From Desulfofustis sp. PB-SRB1 (GTDB taxonomy: Bacteria > Desulfobacterota > Desulfobulbia > Desulfobulbales > Desulfocapsaceae): 64,000 bases of DNA. The notes under the pieces are model-generated. The model saw only the letters and a list, made by a program, of their open reading frames with translations, searched no databases and had not been told where the DNA came from. The stretch spans positions 823,765 through 887,764 of the forward strand of contig JAEQMT010000010.1 of the NCBI GenBank assembly GCA_016722945.1. The letters run 5' to 3'. This document shows positions 1,776-56,414 of this stretch, in pieces (the stretch's first letter is position 1; every line of letters starts with the position of its first letter). Position numbers and translations under genes: made by a program.

Positions 1776-1853
1776 ATGGGAGCCTGAGAGACCCCGTCAT
1801 GAATAACCCAGATGCTTTTACGAGAGCGCAGATAATCAGTGAGGGGAGTACCA

Positions 1854-2624
1854 ATGAGTTCACTCAATAGTCAGTTTCTCACAATTGGTGAGCATCACGC
1901 GCCATATGATGCGATCGATCCCGCCACCACCTTGAAAGGAAGTTGCGCCGGTAAGGTGGTTTTTATTACCGGGGCATCGCGCGGCATCGGCAGGGCTGTG
2001 GCACTTGCTTTCGCCCAGGCCGGGGCGAAGGCAATGTATCTCACCGCCAGATCCGAGCAAGCTCTCGCCCAGGTAAAGGCGGCTGTAGCCGCGGCATATC
2101 CTGATACGCAATGTGGCGCCATGGTATCTGATGTAACCAAAGCTGATGATGTGCAGGCTGCCGTGGATGATTGCGTCAGCAGGTTTGGCGCCATCGATGT
2201 TGTCGATGCCAATGCCGGATACCTCGGCCCGTGGCTGAAGATCGCCGAGTCAGATCCGGTGAGCTGGTGGAAGACCTGGGAGGTCAATGTCAAAGGGGTC
2301 TATCTGGTCGCCCGTTACTGCCTTCCTCATTTGATTAATTCCGCCCGCGCTCATGCCGGCAAGGGCGCCACCGGCGGCCACCTGATCCTCATGTCTTCGG
2401 TGGGGGCGCAGCTCTTGCTGCCGGGCGCCTCGGACTACCAGACATCAAAGCATGCCATTAACCGGTTGTGCGAGTTTATCCATGCCGATCATGGCGAAGA
2501 AGGTGTGAAATGTTTTGCGCTGCATCCCGGCGGGGTGGACACCCAGTTGGCCAGAAATATGCCCGAGCATATCCACCAGTATCTGACTGATGCTCCCGAA
2601 CTGGCGGCGGGTTTTATCGTCTGA
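1854..2624 (+). CDS. SDR family oxidoreductase, C-terminus cut by an in-frame TGA
   Basis: NAD(P)-dependent short-chain dehydrogenase. The Rossmann glycine motif is ITGASRGIG near residue 40, the catalytic Ser is in LMSSVGAQ, and the YxxxK pair is in SDYQTSKHA. The start is the ATG at 1854, with GAGGGGAG seven bases upstream; a GTG at 1839 is also open but lies ahead of that site. Translation stops at TGA 2622-2624, but the same frame continues for 44 codons to a TAA at 2757 with residues that match the usual C-terminus of this SDR group (see the next entry). The truncated protein of 256 aa keeps all catalytic residues. The substrate cannot be read from the sequence. Confidence 0.85.
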   Translation: MSSLNSQFLTIGEHHAPYDAIDPATTLKGSCAGKVVFITGASRGIGRAVALAFAQAGAKAMYLTARSEQALAQVKAAVAAAYPDTQCGAMVSDVTKADDVQAAVDDCVSRFGAIDVVDANAGYLGPWLKIAESDPVSWWKTWEVNVKGVYLVARYCLPHLINSARAHAGKGATGGHLILMSSVGAQLLLPGASDYQTSKHAINRLCEFIHADHGEEGVKCFALHPGGVDTQLARNMPEHIHQYLTDAPELAAGFIV

Positions 2625-2759
2625 CTGTGCAGCGGTCGGGCGGACTGGGCGAGCGGACGCTACCTGAGCAGCACCTGGGATATAGATGAACTGCTGGCAA
2701 TGAAGGAGAAAATCATCAATGATGATCTGCTGGTAAACCGCCTGCGGACGAAGAGGTAA
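2622..2759 (+). pseudogene. Read-through C-terminal part of the SDR gene
   Basis: After the TGA the frame of the SDR gene continues with LCSGRADWASGRYLSSTWD and IDELLAMKEKIINDDLLVNR, then TAA. This resembles the substrate-loop and C-terminal tail of related SDRs, where the stop position is normally Trp (pattern V-W-L). A single TGG to TGA change explains it best. I see no convincing SECIS hairpin just after the TGA, and Trp is not a residue that Sec replaces. Read-through or an assembly error remain possible. Confidence 0.7.
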
Positions 2760-5037: not shown

Positions 5038-5646
5038 GTGACAGAGTTTGATTTTGAGCAGATCTACACCGAATATCGCCACAAAATAATTCGCTACTTA
5101 AGGCGTTTCGTGGGAGATGAGGGCGCCGAAGACGTGACTCAGGCCGTGCTCATCAAGCTCAATCAGTCCATGGCGGATTTCGAGGGACGATCTTCAATGG
5201 ACACCTGGGATTACAAAATTGCCATGAACACGGCCCTGGATTACCTTCGCGGTAAGACAGCGGCCGAAAAGAAGCGTGTCACTTTAGCTGATACCCCCTC
5301 TGCAGCAGGATATCAACGGCTTATCGAGGATGACCGCGCTTCGCCCGAGGAGGTACTTGAACTTGGCCGGCAAAATGCCTGAATAAGAACCTTTGTGGAC
5401 AGGCTTCCCGGTAGTTACCGGGAGATCATCACCTTTCGAGATTTGCTCGGATTGAACACTCAGGAGATTGGGGAGAGGTTGGAACTCAGCCCTGATGCGG
5501 TTCGTGTAAGGTTACATCGTGCCCGCAAGCGGCTCAAGGAAATGATCGACGCCAATTGCGAGGTCTCTAATGGCCAAGGCAACTTTTTGTCCTGCGATTG
5601 GAACCCGGATGGCCCTCTTTATGAAAATTTTCGAACAAAAAATTGA
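5038..5646 (+). CDS. ECF-type sigma-70 factor with an in-frame TGA, probable selenocysteine at residue 115
   Basis: RNA polymerase sigma factor of the extracytoplasmic-function size class, 202 residues if TGA 5380-5382 is read as Sec. The GTG start at 5038 has GCGGAGGG eight bases upstream. Region 2 is at residues 10-70 (RYLRRFVGDEGAEDVTQ, DTWDYKIAMNTALDYLRG). Region 4 is at residues 120-168 with the helix-turn-helix LNTQEIGERLELSPDAVRVR. The same frame is intact on both sides of the TGA. In related delta-proteobacterial sigma factors, as I recall them, this position is a conserved Cys in an M-N-x-C-I-R motif just before region 4, and the C-terminus carries two more conserved Cys, here C174 and C186. 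So UGA replaces a Cys, the usual pattern for selenoproteins. The AhpD-like gene 65 bp downstream is its probable partner. The alternative is a nonsense mutation splitting the gene; no frame decay is seen. Confidence 0.72.
5405..5424 (+). promoter_or_regulatory. Candidate bacterial SECIS hairpin for the sigma factor
   Basis: Stem TTCCCGGT / ACCGGGAG (eight pairs, one G-U) closing a four-base AGTT loop. The loop starts 30 bases after the TGA and carries a G among its first two bases. From memory of bacterial SECIS models, the apical loop lies about 16-37 bases after the UGA with a G at the loop start, so this fits. The same bases also encode conserved sigma residues (RLPGSYRE), so coding constraint could contribute to the pairing. 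Confidence 0.5.
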
Positions 5647-5711: not shown

Positions 5712-5981
5712 ATGGAACTGGATCACAAGGCAAAATTCATGATCATACTTGGTGCGGCCCGCGCCGTAAAATGCGGCCCGTGCTTGGAGCAGGCATTGGT
5801 GTGGGCGGTAGAAAACGGTTTGACCAGTGAAGAAATAGGCCAGGCACTAGCGGTCGGTAAAATGGTGCGGGACGGATCCAACCAGATGCTTACTTCACAG
5901 GCCGAAGAGCAACTTAGCGAAACCTTGCAGACCCTGGGGGTACATTTGCCTGAAGTGGAAGAACTTTCTTGCGAGCCGTAA
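5712..5981 (+). CDS. Carboxymuconolactone decarboxylase/AhpD-like CxxC protein
   Basis: An 89-aa all-helical CMD-family protein. The signature is AARAVKCGPCLEQAL with C21 and C24 as a CxxC pair, followed by the family pattern SEEIGQALAVGKMVRDG. AhpD-type members use the CxxC as a peroxidase or disulfide-exchange site. It starts at the ATG at 5712 behind AGGAG with seven-base spacing. It follows the putative selenocysteine sigma factor on the same strand, and trxB lies across a 373-bp gap on the other strand. I infer that it is a redox partner or regulator of that sigma factor. A classical decarboxylase role is unlikely, given its short length and Cys pair. Confidence 0.82.
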   Translation: MELDHKAKFMIILGAARAVKCGPCLEQALVWAVENGLTSEEIGQALAVGKMVRDGSNQMLTSQAEEQLSETLQTLGVHLPEVEELSCEP

Positions 5982-6354: not shown

Positions 6355-7317
6355 CTATTGCCCCTCTTTATCGCTAATTCCGGCTGCCTTGCAGGTTTCA
6401 ATGTAGTGGGCCGCGGCCAGTGCCGAGGTACATCCGTCGGCGGCGGCTAAAACGATCTGGTTGGCGTATTTCTGTCGCAGGTCGCCTGCTGCGAAGACGC
6501 CCGGAATGGAGGTTTCGCACTTCTCGTCGGTGATCACATAACCGGTGGTATTGCACTTGATGCCGGCCGGGACGATTTGGCTGTTCGGCGAAAAACCCAC
6601 GAATATAAAGACCCCTTCTACGCCAATGTCATGGGTGTCTTCGGTCTGGGTATTCTTGAGTGATAATCCGGTGACTCCACTTGCATCGCTGTTGATGGCG
6701 GTGGCCACGGTGTTGAATTTGATCTCGATATTTTTCTCGTTGAACACCCGCTGTTGCAGGATGCGGCTACCGCGGAATTCGTCGCGTCGATGAATCAGGG
6801 TTACCTTGCTGGTAATTTTGGCGAGATAGAGGGCATCTTCAAGAGCGGTGTCACCGCCGCCGATAACCGCAACTTCCTTATTGCGGAAGAAAAACCCGTC
6901 GCAGGTAGCGCAATAGGAGACGCCCTTGCCGAAATTTTCTTCTTCGCCGGCAATGTTCAGTTTTTTCGAGGTACCGCCGGCGGCCAGGATCAGGGCGTGA
7001 GCATGCAGCCGGCTGCCGTCGTCAAGCACAACGGTGTGGTGGGAAACGCCGGGTTCAGTGCCGGTCACTTCCCGCTGGACGGTTTCGATATCGTAGGCCT
7101 GGGCGTGCTCGAGAAATTTCTCACACAACTCAAAACCGCCAATCTCCTTGAAGCCGGGATAATTTTCCACCTCTTTAGTGGTGGATACTTGGCCGCCGTA
7201 GGCGCCTTTTTCGATCAGGACCGTGTCCAGGGCGGCCCGCATGGCGTAGATACCGGCGGACAAGCCGGCCGGTCCGCCGCCGACGATGATCACATCGTGA
7301 ATTTTTTCATCGTCCAT
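6355..7317 (-). CDS. trxB: Thioredoxin-disulfide reductase
   Basis: NADPH-dependent flavoenzyme, 320 aa, reducing thioredoxin. The FAD-binding GGGPAGL lies at the N-terminus, the redox-active CATCDG near residue 135, the NADPH-binding VIGGGDTALEDAL follows, and the C-terminal FAD motif is GVFAAGDLR. The ATG at 7317 is chosen because GAGGAGG sits six to seven bases upstream; an in-frame start five codons earlier precedes that site. It stands alone on the minus strand next to the sigma/CMD pair, which supports a local thiol-redox theme. A long open frame on the opposite strand (about 6754-7383) is a shadow of this gene. Confidence 0.95.
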   Translation of the reverse strand: MDDEKIHDVIIVGGGPAGLSAGIYAMRAALDTVLIEKGAYGGQVSTTKEVENYPGFKEIGGFELCEKFLEHAQAYDIETVQREVTGTEPGVSHHTVVLDDGSRLHAHALILAAGGTSKKLNIAGEEENFGKGVSYCATCDGFFFRNKEVAVIGGGDTALEDALYLAKITSKVTLIHRRDEFRGSRILQQRVFNEKNIEIKFNTVATAINSDASGVTGLSLKNTQTEDTHDIGVEGVFIFVGFSPNSQIVPAGIKCNTTGYVITDEKCETSIPGVFAAGDLRQKYANQIVLAAADGCTSALAAAHYIETCKAAGISDKEGQ

Positions 7318-7567
7318 GATATGCCTCCTCAAATGATAGTGAAAAGACTATCGGGCATGATCCGGCCCTTGTCAATATATTAGCAAACAATTAAATACAG
7401 TTCGCATGTAGATTGGGCAACACGCTGTTCGAGTGAGGAGTAATGGTGGTAATTTCATGTTATGAAAAGAGCTTTTGTTTTCCGATGAAATCTTTGCCAT
7501 GATGAATCATTTGATTGAAGTATCCTGCGTCCCGCGTTTACCATCCCTACGATCTTCAACATTTGGT

Positions 7568-22967: not shown

Positions 22968-23096
22968 ATGATCAACGTGCTTTTCGTTTGTGAACATAAT
23001 TCCGGCAGAAGCCAAATGGCTGAAGCGTATCTCAAGAAATTCGGCTACGGCATATTTCATGCCGAAAGTGCGGGTGTTGAACCCCAGATTATCTAA
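22968..23096 (+). pseudogene. 5' fragment of a second arsC gene, interrupted by the transposon
   Basis: Starts at the ATG at 22968 behind GAGGGGG, encoding [20 protein letters not shown] and then HAESAG, the first 36 residues of an ArsC/low-molecular-weight phosphatase. It then runs into transposon DNA at 23075 and stops at 23094. Rejoining the gene across the element (removing one GCGGG duplication) gives SAGLEPGNS and a stop that overlaps the arsR start, so the gene was already reduced to about 42 codons before the insertion. It keeps the CX5R P-loop but lacks the rest of the fold. Confidence 0.85.
23070..23074. repeat. 5-bp target site duplication, left
   Basis: GCGGG directly before the element end TGTTGA. 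The identical GCGGG lies at 26297-26301 after the other end, so the insertion is recent enough for the duplication to be intact. Five bases is normal for Tn552/Tn7-type transposases. Confidence 0.9.
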
Positions 23097-23271
23097 AATA
23101 AAACCAGCCTTTTTTGTCAGAATCTGTTAGCAGTGGGTGGTGACACTGCAGATTATTTTGATTTCTCGTAACGTTATTGTACACCCCTCGTGAGTGGTGG
23201 CTGCCGGGGCCGTGGACACGGCCCCGGCAGCCCTCCAGGCAGGAAACCTACTTCCTGAAAGGAGTTGCCTT

Positions 23272-23778
23272 GTGGTACTGTTTGTTGCCGCATCCGTCAA
23301 GGAAATTGCTCGTCTCGGCACCGCCTACCCCTGGAATAAACCATCGTGCTGTCCCCGGTGCGGTGGACGGTTGTGGTGGCATGGATTTGTTGTCGCCTGG
23401 TTTAGCTGCCTTTCTCATTGTGTCTATCTTCGACGTCTGTTCTGTTCGCAGTGCCGCGCCGTTCATCGGTTGAAACCACAGGGGTATTGGCCCCGGTATC
23501 GCAGTTCCAGTGCTGAGATTCACCAGGCAATTACCCACCGACAGAGCACAAAACGCTGGCGGCCCGATCTGCCGCGTTCGCGCCAACGCCAGTGGTGGCG
23601 TCGGCTAGGTCGGATGATTCGGCTGGTCTTCGGGATGTCCACTCAGCTTACCCACCGGGAAGGATTCACTCGACTCATTGCACGAAACATCATCCCGGTC
23701 ACCCAAGCAATACACCATGACAATCGACACATCCATGACCCACCCTACCGTATTGTAGCTCTGCCCGGCGGCCTCTGA
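23272..23778 (+). CDS. Transposon-encoded zinc-ribbon protein
   Basis: 168 aa from the GTG at 23272, which has AAAGGAG seven bases upstream. An N-terminal zinc ribbon is formed by C27-x2-C30 (CPRCGGRLWWHGF) and C58-x2-C61 (LFCSQC). The rest is very basic, with Arg/Trp-rich stretches (RSRQRQWWRRLGRMIR), as in DNA-binding proteins. Similar zinc-ribbon proteins (I think of the DUF6431 type) precede transposases in other mobile elements; its job in end or target recognition is inference. It ends 64 bases before the transposase. In copy 2 this gene has lost one base and is frameshifted. Confidence 0.7.
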   Translation: MVLFVAASVKEIARLGTAYPWNKPSCCPRCGGRLWWHGFVVAWFSCLSHCVYLRRLFCSQCRAVHRLKPQGYWPRYRSSSAEIHQAITHRQSTKRWRPDLPRSRQRQWWRRLGRMIRLVFGMSTQLTHREGFTRLIARNIIPVTQAIHHDNRHIHDPPYRIVALPGGL

Positions 23779-23842
23779 GCATGGTATCGGCAGACAGACT
23801 CGGATAACCCGACTCTGATACCCCATACCCAGGAGGACGCCC

Positions 23843-25162
23843 ATGGAAGACGAAGCCTTACGTACCGAAGTTGCCCTGTTTCGCTTCGGAGTCATCAGCG
23901 AGTTGGTTGCATCACGACTCGAACCCGGTGAGTTGACCGAACTCATCTATCAAAAAAGTGAGCAGCACTGGCATATCCCCGGCTCTCATCGCACCCGGGT
24001 GTCGGCAGCCACCGTCAGGCGCTGGCTGCGACTCTATGAGCGGGGCGGCCGCGAGCTCAGTGCCTTGATGCCGGCCAGGCGGTGCGACCGGGGATGCTCT
24101 CGCACGGTCGATGATGAGACTCGCGGCGCCCTGATCCGGTTGCGCAAAGAACAACCAGGTTGGCCGGTCTGGCGGCTGGTGCAAGCACTTGCTGAAAAAC
24201 AAGTAATCACACCCGGCACGACCCTGAGTCTCTCCACCGCCTATCGCATCCTCACCCAGGAAAAGCTTGACAGCGCCGCTCTGCACAAGCGAGCCCCGGT
24301 GGATCGACGGCGTTACGAGGCCGAATTCCCCAACGATATCTGGCAATCAGATATCATGCACGGCCCGCTGGTAAAAGGCACCGGCAAAAGGCGCAAAGCG
24401 TATCTGATCGCCATTCTTGACGATCATTCCCGGTTCATTACCCACGGCGAGTTCTTCTCTTCGGAAAAACTCGAATCCTGGCTCCAGGTCTTTCGCCAGG
24501 CCCTGCTTACCAGAGGACTGCCGCGTAAACTCTACGTGGACAACGGCGCCGCCTTTCGCTCACGCCATCTCGAACGAATCTGTGCCTCGCTCGGCATCGC
24601 CCTGATCCACAGCCGCCCCTATACCCCACAGGGGCGCGGCAAGATCGAGCGCTTCTTTCGCACCGTCAGATCCCGGTTTATCTCGCGCCTCGATGACCAA
24701 CCCGACACCCTTGCTCAGCTCAATGAGCGGTTCCAGCACTGGCTGGAAACGGACTATCTGCATCGGGTTCATTCGGTCACCGCGATGACCCCGTTCAACC
24801 GCTTTGCCGCTCATCTTGAAATGATTCGCGAAGCACCCGCTGATCTTACTGATCACTTCCGTAAAGAAGTGCGGCGCCGGGTCAGCAAAGACCGGGTCGT
24901 CACCATCGACGGACGACTCTTCGAAGCCCCGGTTCAATTGATCGGTGAACGGGTCACGCTCTTGTTCAACGATGATCGGCCGGAACGGGTCGAAATCTTC
25001 TGTAAGGGGCAGTCGTGTGGTCTGCTCAGGCCGGTTGATCTGGTGGTCAACACCCTGGTGAAACGAACCAAAAACGGCGGTGAAGAGATGCTCGCCGAAA
25101 CCTCGACATGCCGGCCGGGACGGCTGCCCTTTGATCCTAGCGCCGACGGAGGTGGATCATGA
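23843..25162 (+). CDS. DDE transposase with integrase core (TniA-like)
   Basis: 439 aa, starting at ATG 23843 behind AGGAGG. The N-terminal helix-turn-helix region includes RVSAATVRRWLRLYERGG. The catalytic triad of the retroviral-integrase fold is complete: D170 (QSDIMHG), D233 (YVDNGAAF) and E269 (GKIERFF), giving the D(35)E spacing. A C-terminal Mu-type beta-barrel region follows. Its stop overlaps the start of the ATPase by four bases (ATGA), so translation is coupled. It is one residue different from the copy 2 protein (His/Asn in HWxIPG). Confidence 0.95.
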   Translation: MEDEALRTEVALFRFGVISELVASRLEPGELTELIYQKSEQHWHIPGSHRTRVSAATVRRWLRLYERGGRELSALMPARRCDRGCSRTVDDETRGALIRLRKEQPGWPVWRLVQALAEKQVITPGTTLSLSTAYRILTQEKLDSAALHKRAPVDRRRYEAEFPNDIWQSDIMHGPLVKGTGKRRKAYLIAILDDHSRFITHGEFFSSEKLESWLQVFRQALLTRGLPRKLYVDNGAAFRSRHLERICASLGIALIHSRPYTPQGRGKIERFFRTVRSRFISRLDDQPDTLAQLNERFQHWLETDYLHRVHSVTAMTPFNRFAAHLEMIREAPADLTDHFRKEVRRRVSKDRVVTIDGRLFEAPVQLIGERVTLLFNDDRPERVEIFCKGQSCGLLRPVDLVVNTLVKRTKNGGEEMLAETSTCRPGRLPFDPSADGGGS

Positions 25163-25962
25163 GCTATCGAACTTTCTTCGGCCTCAGTGCGGAGCCCTTC
25201 AGGGCTGATCTCGCCCTTGAGCAGGTGCTCACCACCCCGGAATTGCTCGGCGTCCAGCAACGCCTCGACTATGTCTTGCGTCTGGGCGCCATCATGCTTG
25301 TCACCGGCGAAGTCGGCGCCGGCAAATCAACCGCCGTGCGCTACAGCTGTGGAACGCTTCATCACTCTCGGTACAAGACCCTGTGGGTCACCGCTTCAGC
25401 CGGCTCTATTCTCGAACTCTACCGCCAGCTCCTGGCCGAGCTTGACATCGCTACCGCATCGTCCTCACGGGCCGTATTGACCCGGCTGATCAGAGCACAG
25501 ATCGACAGCCTGGTCGCCGGTAAAAAGCAGCAACCCCTGCTGATTATCGATGAGGCCTCACTGCTGCGCCTCGATGTCTTTGCCGAGCTCCATACCATCA
25601 CCCAGTTCGAAGCCGACTCCAAACCGTGGCTGCCCATGGTGCTGGCCGGCCAGAATAACCTGGCGGAAAACCTGCTCTACCGTACCGCCATACCGCTGGC
25701 TTCTCGCATTGTTGCCAGAAGTCATCTGCCGGCGGTCACCCGCCAGGCGATGGGTGAGTATCTGGACCATCATCTCACCATTGTCGGAATAAAAAACTCA
25801 CCCTTTACCGAACAGGCGGTAACCGCCATTCATCAGGGCTCCGGCGGGCTCTTTCGCAAAGCCAACCATCTTGCCCGCGGCGCCATGATCGCCGCTGCCG
25901 CCGAAAAAACACAAGAGGTAACAGCGGAGCATGTTCGGTGTGCCGACTCGGAGCTGCTGTAA
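25159..25962 (+). CDS. AAA ATPase, transposition protein (TniB/ExeA-like)
   Basis: 267 aa. Walker A GEVGAGKST is at residues 50-58 and Walker B is LLIIDEAS. The sensor region includes VLAGQNNLAENL and the C-terminus LFRKANHLARGAMIAA. ATPases of this type partner DDE transposases in Tn7/Tn552/Mu-like elements and choose the target. It overlaps the transposase by four bases. It is identical in both copies. Confidence 0.92.
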   Translation: MSYRTFFGLSAEPFRADLALEQVLTTPELLGVQQRLDYVLRLGAIMLVTGEVGAGKSTAVRYSCGTLHHSRYKTLWVTASAGSILELYRQLLAELDIATASSSRAVLTRLIRAQIDSLVAGKKQQPLLIIDEASLLRLDVFAELHTITQFEADSKPWLPMVLAGQNNLAENLLYRTAIPLASRIVARSHLPAVTRQAMGEYLDHHLTIVGIKNSPFTEQAVTAIHQGSGGLFRKANHLARGAMIAAAAEKTQEVTAEHVRCADSELL

Positions 25963-25990
25963 TTCAACCATCAAACACAAGGAGCACATC

Positions 25991-26152
25991 ATGAAACCTG
26001 AACAGACCATCCAGTTTCTTGCCGAATTGCTTGAACTGGCTGAAGAACTAAACCGTATCGTCAAACAGTATTGCCGACTCGTAACCACTGATCAATCTGG
26101 ACACGGACACTACGCAGAGAAGAAGGACTCAGAATATGATGCATTGTTCTGA
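25991..26152 (+). CDS. 53-aa transposon-encoded protein of unknown function
   Basis: ATG 25991 has AAGGAG eight bases upstream. The protein begins EQTIQFLAELLELAEELN, an amphipathic helix, and ends in a charged tail. It is kept in full, without change, in copy 2 (56047-56208), which suggests it is a real gene and not a chance frame. No relative is recognised. Confidence 0.6.
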   Translation: MKPEQTIQFLAELLELAEELNRIVKQYCRLVTTDQSGHGHYAEKKDSEYDALF

Positions 26153-26184
26153 GTAAATCTGTACTCTAGTCGTGCCGAGATGCT

Positions 26185-26221
26185 CCCCCCGGGCGGCGCT
26201 ACGCGACGCACGCCCGGGGGG
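26185..26221. terminator. Strong GC hairpin inside the transposon right end
   Basis: Eleven paired bases, CCCCCCGGGCG against CGCCCGGGGGG, around a 15-base loop. It lies 75 bases before the element end and 32 bases after the last gene. There is no T run, so it is either a structural end element or a factor-assisted terminator that insulates the element. Copy 2 carries the same stem. Confidence 0.55.
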
Positions 26222-26296
26222 GACGCCTGCAAAATATTCTGATATCACTGGTAAGATATTCAGACAAATGCTGTGCATTTAATGTGAGAATCAACA

Positions 26297-53122: not shown

Positions 53123-53328
53123 AGCATCCACTGTTGAATCCCAGATTATCTAAAATAAAACCAGCCTTTTTTGTCAGAATCTGTTAGCAGTGGGTGGTGA
53201 CACTGCAGATTATCTTGAATTCTCGTAACGTTATTGCACACCCCTCGTGAGTGGTGGCTGCCGGGGCCGTAGCCACGGTCCCGGCAGCCCTCCAGGCAGG
53301 AAGCCTACTTCCTGAAAGGAGTTGCCTT

Positions 53329-53840
53329 GTGGTACTGTTTGTTGCCGCATCCGTCAAGGAAATTGCTCGTCTCGGCACCGCCTACCCCTGGAACAAACCA
53401 TCGTGCTGCCCCGGTGCGGTGGACGGTTGTGGTGGCATGGATTTGTTGTCGCCTGGTTTAGCTGCCTTTCTCATTGTGTCTATCTTCGACGTCTGTTCTG
53501 TTCTCAGTGCCGCGCCGTTCATCGATTGAAACCACGGGGATATTGGCCCCGGTATCGCAGTTCCAGTGCTGAGATCCAGCAGGCAATTACCCACCGACAG
53601 AGCACAAAACGCTGGCGGCCCGATCTGCCGCGTTCGCGCCAACGCCAGTGGTGGCGTCGGCTAGGTCGGATGATTCGGCTGGTCTTCGGGATGTCCGCTC
53701 AGCTTACCCACCGGGAAGGATTCACCCGACTCATTGCACGAAACATCATCCCGGTCACCCAAGCAATACACCATGACAATCGACACATCCATGACCCACC
53801 CTACCGTATTGTAGCTCTACCCGGCGCCTGCTGCCGGTGA
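53329..53840 (+). pseudogene. Frameshifted zinc-ribbon gene of copy 2
   Basis: GTG start 53329 behind AAAGGAG, same start as copy 1. Copy 1 has TGCTGTCCCCGG where copy 2 has TGCTGCCCCGG: one T is missing at the first CxxC, so the frame shifts at C27 and stops early. The old frame continues in the other phase to 53840. The zinc site cannot form, so copy 2 lacks this function unless copy 1 supplies it. Confidence 0.85.
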
Positions 53841-53898
53841 TATGGGAACACAGACTCGGATAACCCGACTCTGATACCCCATACCCAGGAGGACGCCC

Positions 53899-55218
53899 AT
53901 GGAAGACGAAGCCTTACGTACCGAAGTTGCCCTGTTTCGCTTCGGAGTTATCAGCGAGTTGGTTGCATCACGACTCGAACCCGGTGAGTTGACCGAACTC
54001 ATCTATCAAAAAAGTGAGCAGCACTGGAATATCCCCGGCTCTCATCGCACCCGGGTGTCGGCGGCCACCGTCAGGCGCTGGCTGCGACTCTATGAGCGGG
54101 GCGGCCGCGAGCTCAGTGCCTTGATGCCGGCCAGGCGGTGCGACCGGGGATGCTCTCGCACGGTCGATGATGAGACTCGCGGCGCCCTGATCCGGTTGCG
54201 CAAAGAACAACCAGGTTGGCCGGTCTGGCGGCTGGTGCAAGCACTTGCTGAAAAACAAGTAATCACACCCGGCACGACCCTGAGTCTCTCCACCGCCTAT
54301 CGCATCCTCACCCAGGAAAAGCTTGACAGCGCCGCTCTGCACAAGCGAGCCCCGGTGGATCGACGGCGTTACGAGGCCGAATTCCCCAACGATATCTGGC
54401 AATCAGATATCATGCACGGCCCGCTGGTAAAAGGCACCGGCAAAAGGCGCAAAGCGTATCTGATCGCCATTCTTGACGATCATTCCCGGTTCATTACCCA
54501 CGGCGAGTTCTTCTCTTCGGAAAAACTCGAATCCTGGCTCCAGGTCTTTCGCCAGGCCCTGCTTACCAGAGGACTGCCGCGTAAACTCTACGTGGACAAC
54601 GGCGCCGCCTTTCGCTCACGCCATCTCGAACGAATCTGTGCCTCGCTCGGCATCGCCCTGATCCACAGCCGCCCCTATACCCCACAGGGGCGCGGCAAGA
54701 TCGAGCGCTTCTTTCGCACCGTCAGATCCCGGTTTATCTCGCGCCTCGATGACCAACCCGACACCCTTGCTCAGCTCAATGAGCGGTTCCAGCACTGGCT
54801 GGAAACGGACTATCTGCATCGGGTTCATTCGGTCACCGCGATGACCCCGTTCAACCGCTTTGCCGCTCATCTTGAAATGATTCGCGAAGCACCCGCTGAT
54901 CTTACTGATCACTTCCGTAAAGAAGTGCGGCGCCGGGTCAGCAAAGACCGGGTCGTCACCATCGACGGACGACTCTTCGAAGCCCCGGTTCAATTGATCG
55001 GTGAACGGGTCACGCTCTTGTTCAACGATGATCGGCCGGAACGGGTCGAAATCTTCTGTAAGGGGCAGTCGTGTGGTCTGCTCAGGCCGGTTGATCTGGT
55101 GGTCAACACCCTGGTGAAACGAACCAAAAACGGCGGTGAAGAGATGCTCGCCGAAACCTCGACATGCCGGCCGGGACGGCTGCCCTTTGATCCTAGCGCC
55201 GACGGAGGTGGATCATGA
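53899..55218 (+). CDS. DDE transposase, copy 2
   Basis: 439 aa, with the same triad D170, D233 and E269. One residue differs from copy 1 (Asn in HWNIPG in place of His). It starts behind AGGAGG. It overlaps the ATPase by four bases. It should be active if its ends are. Confidence 0.95.
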   Translation: MEDEALRTEVALFRFGVISELVASRLEPGELTELIYQKSEQHWNIPGSHRTRVSAATVRRWLRLYERGGRELSALMPARRCDRGCSRTVDDETRGALIRLRKEQPGWPVWRLVQALAEKQVITPGTTLSLSTAYRILTQEKLDSAALHKRAPVDRRRYEAEFPNDIWQSDIMHGPLVKGTGKRRKAYLIAILDDHSRFITHGEFFSSEKLESWLQVFRQALLTRGLPRKLYVDNGAAFRSRHLERICASLGIALIHSRPYTPQGRGKIERFFRTVRSRFISRLDDQPDTLAQLNERFQHWLETDYLHRVHSVTAMTPFNRFAAHLEMIREAPADLTDHFRKEVRRRVSKDRVVTIDGRLFEAPVQLIGERVTLLFNDDRPERVEIFCKGQSCGLLRPVDLVVNTLVKRTKNGGEEMLAETSTCRPGRLPFDPSADGGGS

Positions 55219-56018
55219 GCTATCGAACTTTCTTCGGCCTCAGTGCGGAGCCCTTCAGGGCTGATCTCGCCCTTGAGCAGGTGCTCACCACCCCGGAATT
55301 GCTCGGCGTCCAGCAACGCCTCGACTATGTCTTGCGTCTGGGCGCCATCATGCTTGTCACCGGCGAAGTCGGCGCCGGCAAATCAACCGCCGTGCGCTAC
55401 AGCTGTGGAACGCTTCATCACTCTCGGTACAAGACCCTGTGGGTCACCGCTTCAGCCGGCTCTATTCTCGAACTCTACCGCCAGCTCCTGGCCGAGCTTG
55501 ACATCGCTACCGCATCGTCCTCACGGGCCGTATTGACCCGGCTGATCAGAGCACAGATCGACAGCCTGGTCGCCGGTAAAAAGCAGCAACCCCTGCTGAT
55601 TATCGATGAGGCCTCACTGCTGCGCCTCGATGTCTTTGCCGAGCTCCATACCATCACCCAGTTCGAAGCCGACTCCAAACCGTGGCTGCCCATGGTGCTG
55701 GCCGGCCAGAATAACCTGGCGGAAAACCTGCTCTACCGTACCGCCATACCGCTGGCTTCTCGCATTGTTGCCAGAAGTCATCTGCCGGCGGTCACCCGCC
55801 AGGCGATGGGTGAGTATCTGGACCATCATCTCACCATTGTCGGAATAAAAAACTCACCCTTTACCGAACAGGCGGTAACCGCCATTCATCAGGGCTCCGG
55901 CGGGCTCTTTCGCAAAGCCAACCATCTTGCCCGCGGCGCCATGATCGCCGCTGCCGCCGAAAAAACACAAGAGGTAACAGCGGAGCATGTTCGGTGTGCC
56001 GACTCGGAGCTGCTGTAA
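55215..56018 (+). CDS. AAA ATPase, transposition protein, copy 2
   Basis: 267 aa, identical to the copy 1 protein, with Walker A GEVGAGKST and Walker B LLIIDEAS. Coupled to the transposase by a four-base overlap. Confidence 0.93.
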   Translation: MSYRTFFGLSAEPFRADLALEQVLTTPELLGVQQRLDYVLRLGAIMLVTGEVGAGKSTAVRYSCGTLHHSRYKTLWVTASAGSILELYRQLLAELDIATASSSRAVLTRLIRAQIDSLVAGKKQQPLLIIDEASLLRLDVFAELHTITQFEADSKPWLPMVLAGQNNLAENLLYRTAIPLASRIVARSHLPAVTRQAMGEYLDHHLTIVGIKNSPFTEQAVTAIHQGSGGLFRKANHLARGAMIAAAAEKTQEVTAEHVRCADSELL

Positions 56019-56046
56019 TTCAACCATCAAACACAAGGAGCACATC

Positions 56047-56208
56047 ATGAAACCTGAACAGACCATCCAGTTTCTTGCCGAATTGCTTGAACTGGCTGAA
56101 GAACTAAACCGTATCGTCAAACAGTATTGCCGACTCGTAACCACTGATCAATCTGGACACGGACACTACGCAGAGAAGAAGGACTCAGAATATGATGCAT
56201 TGTTCTGA
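56047..56208 (+). CDS. 53-aa transposon protein, copy 2
   Basis: Identical to the protein at 25991-26152, with the same AAGGAG site. Its unchanged retention in both copies supports its being a real gene. Confidence 0.6.
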   Translation: MKPEQTIQFLAELLELAEELNRIVKQYCRLVTTDQSGHGHYAEKKDSEYDALF

Positions 56209-56414
56209 GTAAATCTGTACTCTAGTCGTGCCGAGATGCTCCCCCCGGGCGGCGCTACGCGACGCACGCCCGGGGGGACGCCTGCAAAATATTCTGATAT
56301 CACTGGTAAGATATTCAGACAAATGCTGTGCATTTAATGTGAGAATCAACAATCTGATGGGGAAGAGGCCATTTGCAGCTGGCAGTTCAAAAGCCGATGA
56401 GGAGGGCATGGATT

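Follow-up and report, generated by a model that had tools for sequence, protein, structure and literature searches.

A SigZ-like ECF sigma factor with a probable selenocysteine at an invariant cysteine position in Desulfofustis sp. PB-SRB1

The window, the whole stretch of 64,000 nucleotides from Desulfofustis sp. PB-SRB1 that was analysed, carries at positions 5038–5646 of the forward strand a gene for a SigZ-like ECF sigma factor, which is 202 amino acids long if an in-frame TGA is read as selenocysteine (Sec). The gene starts with GTG at 5038, with a Shine-Dalgarno sequence (GGAGG) upstream, and the TGA at 5380–5382 (residue 115 of 202; the proposed Sec115, at an invariant Cys of helix 4.1) is the sole stop inside the frame. 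When the sigma was read through, Pfam recognised Sigma70_r2 over residues 9–74 and Sigma70_r4_2 over residues 115–166, and TIGR02937 matched at 103.7 bits, above its cutoff of 42.9. No sigma-70 regions other than 2 and 4 are present, the layout that defines an ECF factor. Codon usage favoured coding on either side of the TGA (+8.7 and +4.4 log units). The original prediction had called the frame clean on both sides of the TGA, and recognition of regions 2 and 4 across it agreed with this. The best structural matches of the protein were ECF sigma factors, and its AlphaFold model was good within the domains (pLDDT 83), with a pTM of 0.49 that leaves the placement between domains unusable. A search of Rfam over the window returned no RNA family, the only match over the UGA region being a chance one to a microRNA.

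An apparent operon partner lies 65 nt downstream of the sigma gene (5712–5981, forward strand) and has its own Shine-Dalgarno sequence; it encodes an 89-amino-acid AhpD/carboxymuconolactone-decarboxylase (CMD)-like protein with a CGPC motif. The convergent neighbor (6355–7332, reverse strand) encodes a thioredoxin-reductase-like flavoprotein with a CATC motif. A CMD/AhpD-like CxxC gene was found within about 1.5 kb at 23 of 35 loci of the sigma family described below, compared with 3 of 49 loci for other ECFs (p = 5e-9), and it often stands directly upstream of the family sigma. No anti-sigma gene was noticed as a neighbor. Elsewhere in the window, an insertion element of 3.2 kb, with a DDE transposase and an AAA ATPase, is present in two 99%-identical copies (23075–26296 and 53132–56351), and similar sequence was seen at two places on another contig (L235).

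Homologs were drawn from the class of the window (258 genomes), from phylum samples and from neighboring classes, with 1162 genomes searched altogether. An alignment of 24 divergent members held only nine invariant columns, and three of these are Cys: position 115, where the window has TGA, and positions 174 and 186 in the tail (5557–5559 and 5593–5595 in the window, forward strand). Both the conserved Cys expected at the TGA position in related sigma factors and the two expected in the tail were therefore confirmed. All 34 homologs grouped as the family had Cys at all three positions, although, as the group was set partly by score and partly by the Cys pattern itself, this is not a blind count. 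The aligned position thus did not vary within the family, and the prediction survived the homolog check. Relatives just outside the family that lack Cys115 have Trp (L104, L226, L227) or Leu (L228) in its place, and these also lack one or both of the tail Cys. Among 49 other ECFs, Cys115 and Cys174 were both present in nine, one or the other alone in one and six, and neither in 33 (p = 2e-5, ignoring phylogeny). From these patterns, Cys115, C174 and C186 look like one functional unit, of which the TGA would replace one member.

One genus (L099/L212, L218, L104, L226, L227) was seen to hold Cys-triad sigmas as well as related CMD-adjacent sigmas with Trp at 115 that are without one or both tail Cys. 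Cys-free relatives adjoining a CMD gene exist, and the triad is therefore not required in every member. No second homolog with TGA at position 115 was found among the 1162 genomes searched. TGAs in homologs from three genomes (G178, G371 and G525) were ruled out as second Sec cases, as they lie at frame ends and not at position 115, and a match in G068 proved to be a different ECF with Leu at the position. A scan of genome contigs gave one locus, which was spurious, and a scan of viral contigs gave only distant phage sigma factors.

A SECIS-like hairpin lies at 5394–5432 (forward strand), with an inner stem at 5405–5424, an outer stem and an apical loop AGUU at 5413–5416. The inner stem has 8 bp (UUCCCGGU-AGUU-ACCGGGAG), and its loop lies 30 nt after the UGA. 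A published SECIS model has a loop of 3–9 nt with G in the first two loop positions, a stem of 4–16 bp, a spacing of 16–37 nt and a minimum free energy of -7.5 or lower (PMC13188914), and the sigma hairpin fits it on all four counts (loop AGUU, 8 bp, 30 nt, -11.7 kcal/mol). By the same script, which is not a perfect detector since its contiguous-stem rule missed SelD and FdhA1, 4.3% of 18,264 window positions fitted the model, 2.3% with a G[G/U] loop rule, while 0.85% were as stable as the sigma hairpin; the Cys homologs fitted in 1 of 26 cases, or 0 of 26 with the G[G/U] rule. In 14 selenoprotein genes that served as a reference within the genome, the spacing from loop to UGA was 17–27 nt, making the sigma hairpin at 30 nt a spacing outlier in this genome, and the loops of these genes mostly contain GG where the sigma has AGUU. 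The folding energy of the hairpin by itself was unremarkable (z = -1.1). Of the predicted SECIS-like element at the right distance, the hairpin and its agreement with published values held up, whereas its distance falls outside the genome's own range.

The genome encodes selA, selB, tRNA-Sec (selC) and selD, so that the check for these four genes, like that of the homologs, did not overturn the prediction. The selD gene itself carries TGA at the established Sec site, and the same holds for two formate dehydrogenases (FdhA). A survey for TGA in coding frames, covering about 1.2 Mb of further stretches together with the window (roughly 1.3 Mb in total), turned up no fewer than 14 proteins from recognised selenoprotein families when read across TGA: two FdhA, SelD, HdrA, two VhuD, VhuA, two UGH Fe-S proteins, a Prx-like protein, a SelL-related protein, a LYCAU rhodanese, Ogt (PUHRV) and DUF166. 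A large set of selenoprotein genes, those for the Ogt methyltransferase and the DUF166 protein among them, was seen at L234:17821, L254:17358, L273:3054, L280:16252/15419/12313/9787, L240:17058, L241:6815/18712/12944, L267:18651, L246:11930 and L261:17312. The genome is selenoprotein-rich, a trait that certain other lineages of sulfate reducers are also reported to have (PMC12013277). A third formate-dehydrogenase-like fragment (L112, G000:C7:284-1457) has both TGA and TAA and is probably a defunct copy. An initial search for further split genes by codon bias yielded mostly antisense frames or gene ends and was set aside.

Judged from these sequence comparisons, the UGA at 5380 is likely to be decoded as Sec. 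With no variation at 115 in the family and with selA, selB, selC and selD present, the probable selenocysteine of the original prediction is well supported, yet unproven, the lone TGA and the atypical SECIS spacing weighing on the other side; some accepted selenoprotein families are singletons (PMC12013277). An SDR gene 2.7 kb upstream (1839–2756, forward strand) served as a non-Sec control. It has an in-frame TGA at 2622–2624, a position held by Trp and Arg in two relatives, and the part downstream of this TGA still resembles an SDR C-terminus. As this is a non-Cys position, ordinary TGA interruptions do occur in the window, and the sigma TGA needs evidence of its own; it has such evidence, except for a second TGA-bearing species.

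The interrupted SDR, the single instance among so many genomes and a hairpin energy that alone is not exceptional would all suit an ordinary nonsense mutation or an assembly or sequencing error, in which the true or ancestral codon was TGC or TGT and the TGA marks a pseudogene or a mistake. However, the TGA falls on the sole pre-region-4 column that is always Cys, and only one of about 17 single-base routes to TGA in the sigma gene is at codon 115. The hairpin also agrees with the SECIS model at a background of 2–4%, the frame is otherwise undamaged and the two partner Cys are kept, and the genome is rich in selenoproteins, all of which make mutation or error unlikely. Alternatively, translation could truly end at the TGA, with a sigma-2 piece (5038–5382) cooperating with a sigma-4 piece, given that a GTG start at 5395, 13 nt past the TGA, opens an 83-amino-acid sigma-4 ORF; a two-subunit sigma factor, SigO-RsoA, exists in Bacillus. 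We rejected this split as very improbable, because every full-length homolog in the family alignment is one continuous chain with Cys at the position, and because the second ORF would keep only half of helix 4.1 and lacks a clear Shine-Dalgarno sequence.

Under Sec decoding, the preferred reading, we propose that Sec at UGA 5380, inserted with help of the downstream hairpin, takes the place of the Cys that is invariant immediately ahead of region 4, and that a single on-board thiol/selenol site is probably made up of Sec115, C174 and C186. This site would be a selenenylsulfide, or a metal site, opened by oxidation or metals, and it may set the position of sigma-4 and hence promoter binding. 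By analogy with the known ECFs that carry Cys sensors, an S-Se bond or a bound metal could clamp sigma-4, and oxidation or an exchange of metal would then alter promoter binding. As for the CxxC protein of the AhpD/CMD type next door, it would serve the sigma as redox partner or be its main target. Since UGA requires Sec-tRNA, the full-length sigma should form only with selenium available, and selenium shortage would leave only a 114-residue sigma-2 fragment. We infer here that Sec is in fact inserted and that it forms a bond with Cys or a metal site, and the same goes for the signal and the regulon. We hold the full explanation, in which hairpin-directed Sec115, an on-board site setting promoter binding and a CMD-like partner act together, with moderate confidence.

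Given Sec, the case for a Sec/Cys redox or metal switch is finely balanced, although such a switch of Sec115 with C174/C186 would fit best, and the co-occurrence of Cys115 with Cys174 together with the AhpD-like neighbor makes a redox-switch role plausible. The inserted Sec might instead be mainly a metal ligand, or structural, with no thiol-redox switch. CorE, CorE2 and OrbS are ECFs with cysteine-rich C-termini that sense Cu, Cd/Zn and Fe(II) via Cys (PMC8999054, PMC9023288), and CorE needs linker cysteines too, an analogous layout. The genetic partner here, however, is an AhpD/CMD-type CxxC protein and no metal exporter, and it is mainly in redox proteins that Sec stands in for Cys (PMC1794560, PMC13188914), so that a metal-ligand or structural role seems rather unlikely. 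A one-component selenium/redox switch, which would couple selenium supply (through UGA decoding) and redox state (through Sec115 with C174/C186) directly to promoter choice by RNA polymerase, with the AhpD-like protein as partner, is a tentative proposal, less likely than not.

To our knowledge, nearly every selenoprotein described so far is an enzyme or a carrier of redox equivalents. No sigma factor is included among the 119 prokaryotic selenoprotein families of a 2026 inventory (PMC13188914), and we found no Sec-containing sigma factor in the open-access literature, in line with the original statement that none had been described; the window sigma is most likely the first known. If true, this would place selenium chemistry inside the transcription machinery itself, allow a direct test of why a regulator favors Sec over Cys, and suggest a simple means by which selenium turns a regulator on or off. 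Apart from this, the SigZ-like sigmas with a Cys triad and an AhpD-like partner seem to be a so far undescribed ECF group that senses redox state or metals, open to study in the Cys-containing relatives.

By its sequence matches the sigma family is SigZ-like: for each of the 24 members in the alignment, SigZ (TIGR02959) ranked with the named families that matched best, the window sigma itself scoring far below the curated cutoff (89.5 vs 168.65 bits). Within the SigZ-type ECFs (TIGR02959/PRK09637), Priestia SigZ has Cys at the equivalents of 115 and 174, but it is without an equivalent of C186, has no CMD gene annotated beside it, and carries Cys at 115 where Sec is proposed for the window sigma. 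CorE/CorE2 (ECF44/ECF238) and OrbS are comparable in that they need no anti-sigma factor, their activity being set by Cys at or close to the linker between sigma-2 and sigma-4 and/or in the C-terminal tail. The window sigma differs from them in its Cys spacing, with a single residue in the linker and only two Cys in the tail, in having no Cys-rich cluster and in its putative Sec in place of Cys; where CorE-like (ECF44) factors have a linker CXC and a Cys-rich C-terminal domain, it has the single residue 115 and the two tail Cys. With SelB/SECIS selenoproteins (119 families, PMC13188914) it shares a UGA at the conserved Cys of its homologs, a downstream SECIS-like hairpin and a Sec-decoding genome, although the hairpin lies farther from the UGA than in the genome's other selenoprotein genes. 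The neighboring 89-amino-acid protein is a distant relative of the AhpD/CMD-like (seleno)proteins of the NF041047 GSU3128 family, falling below their cutoff (25.7 bits vs 110) and having CxxC instead of CxxU.
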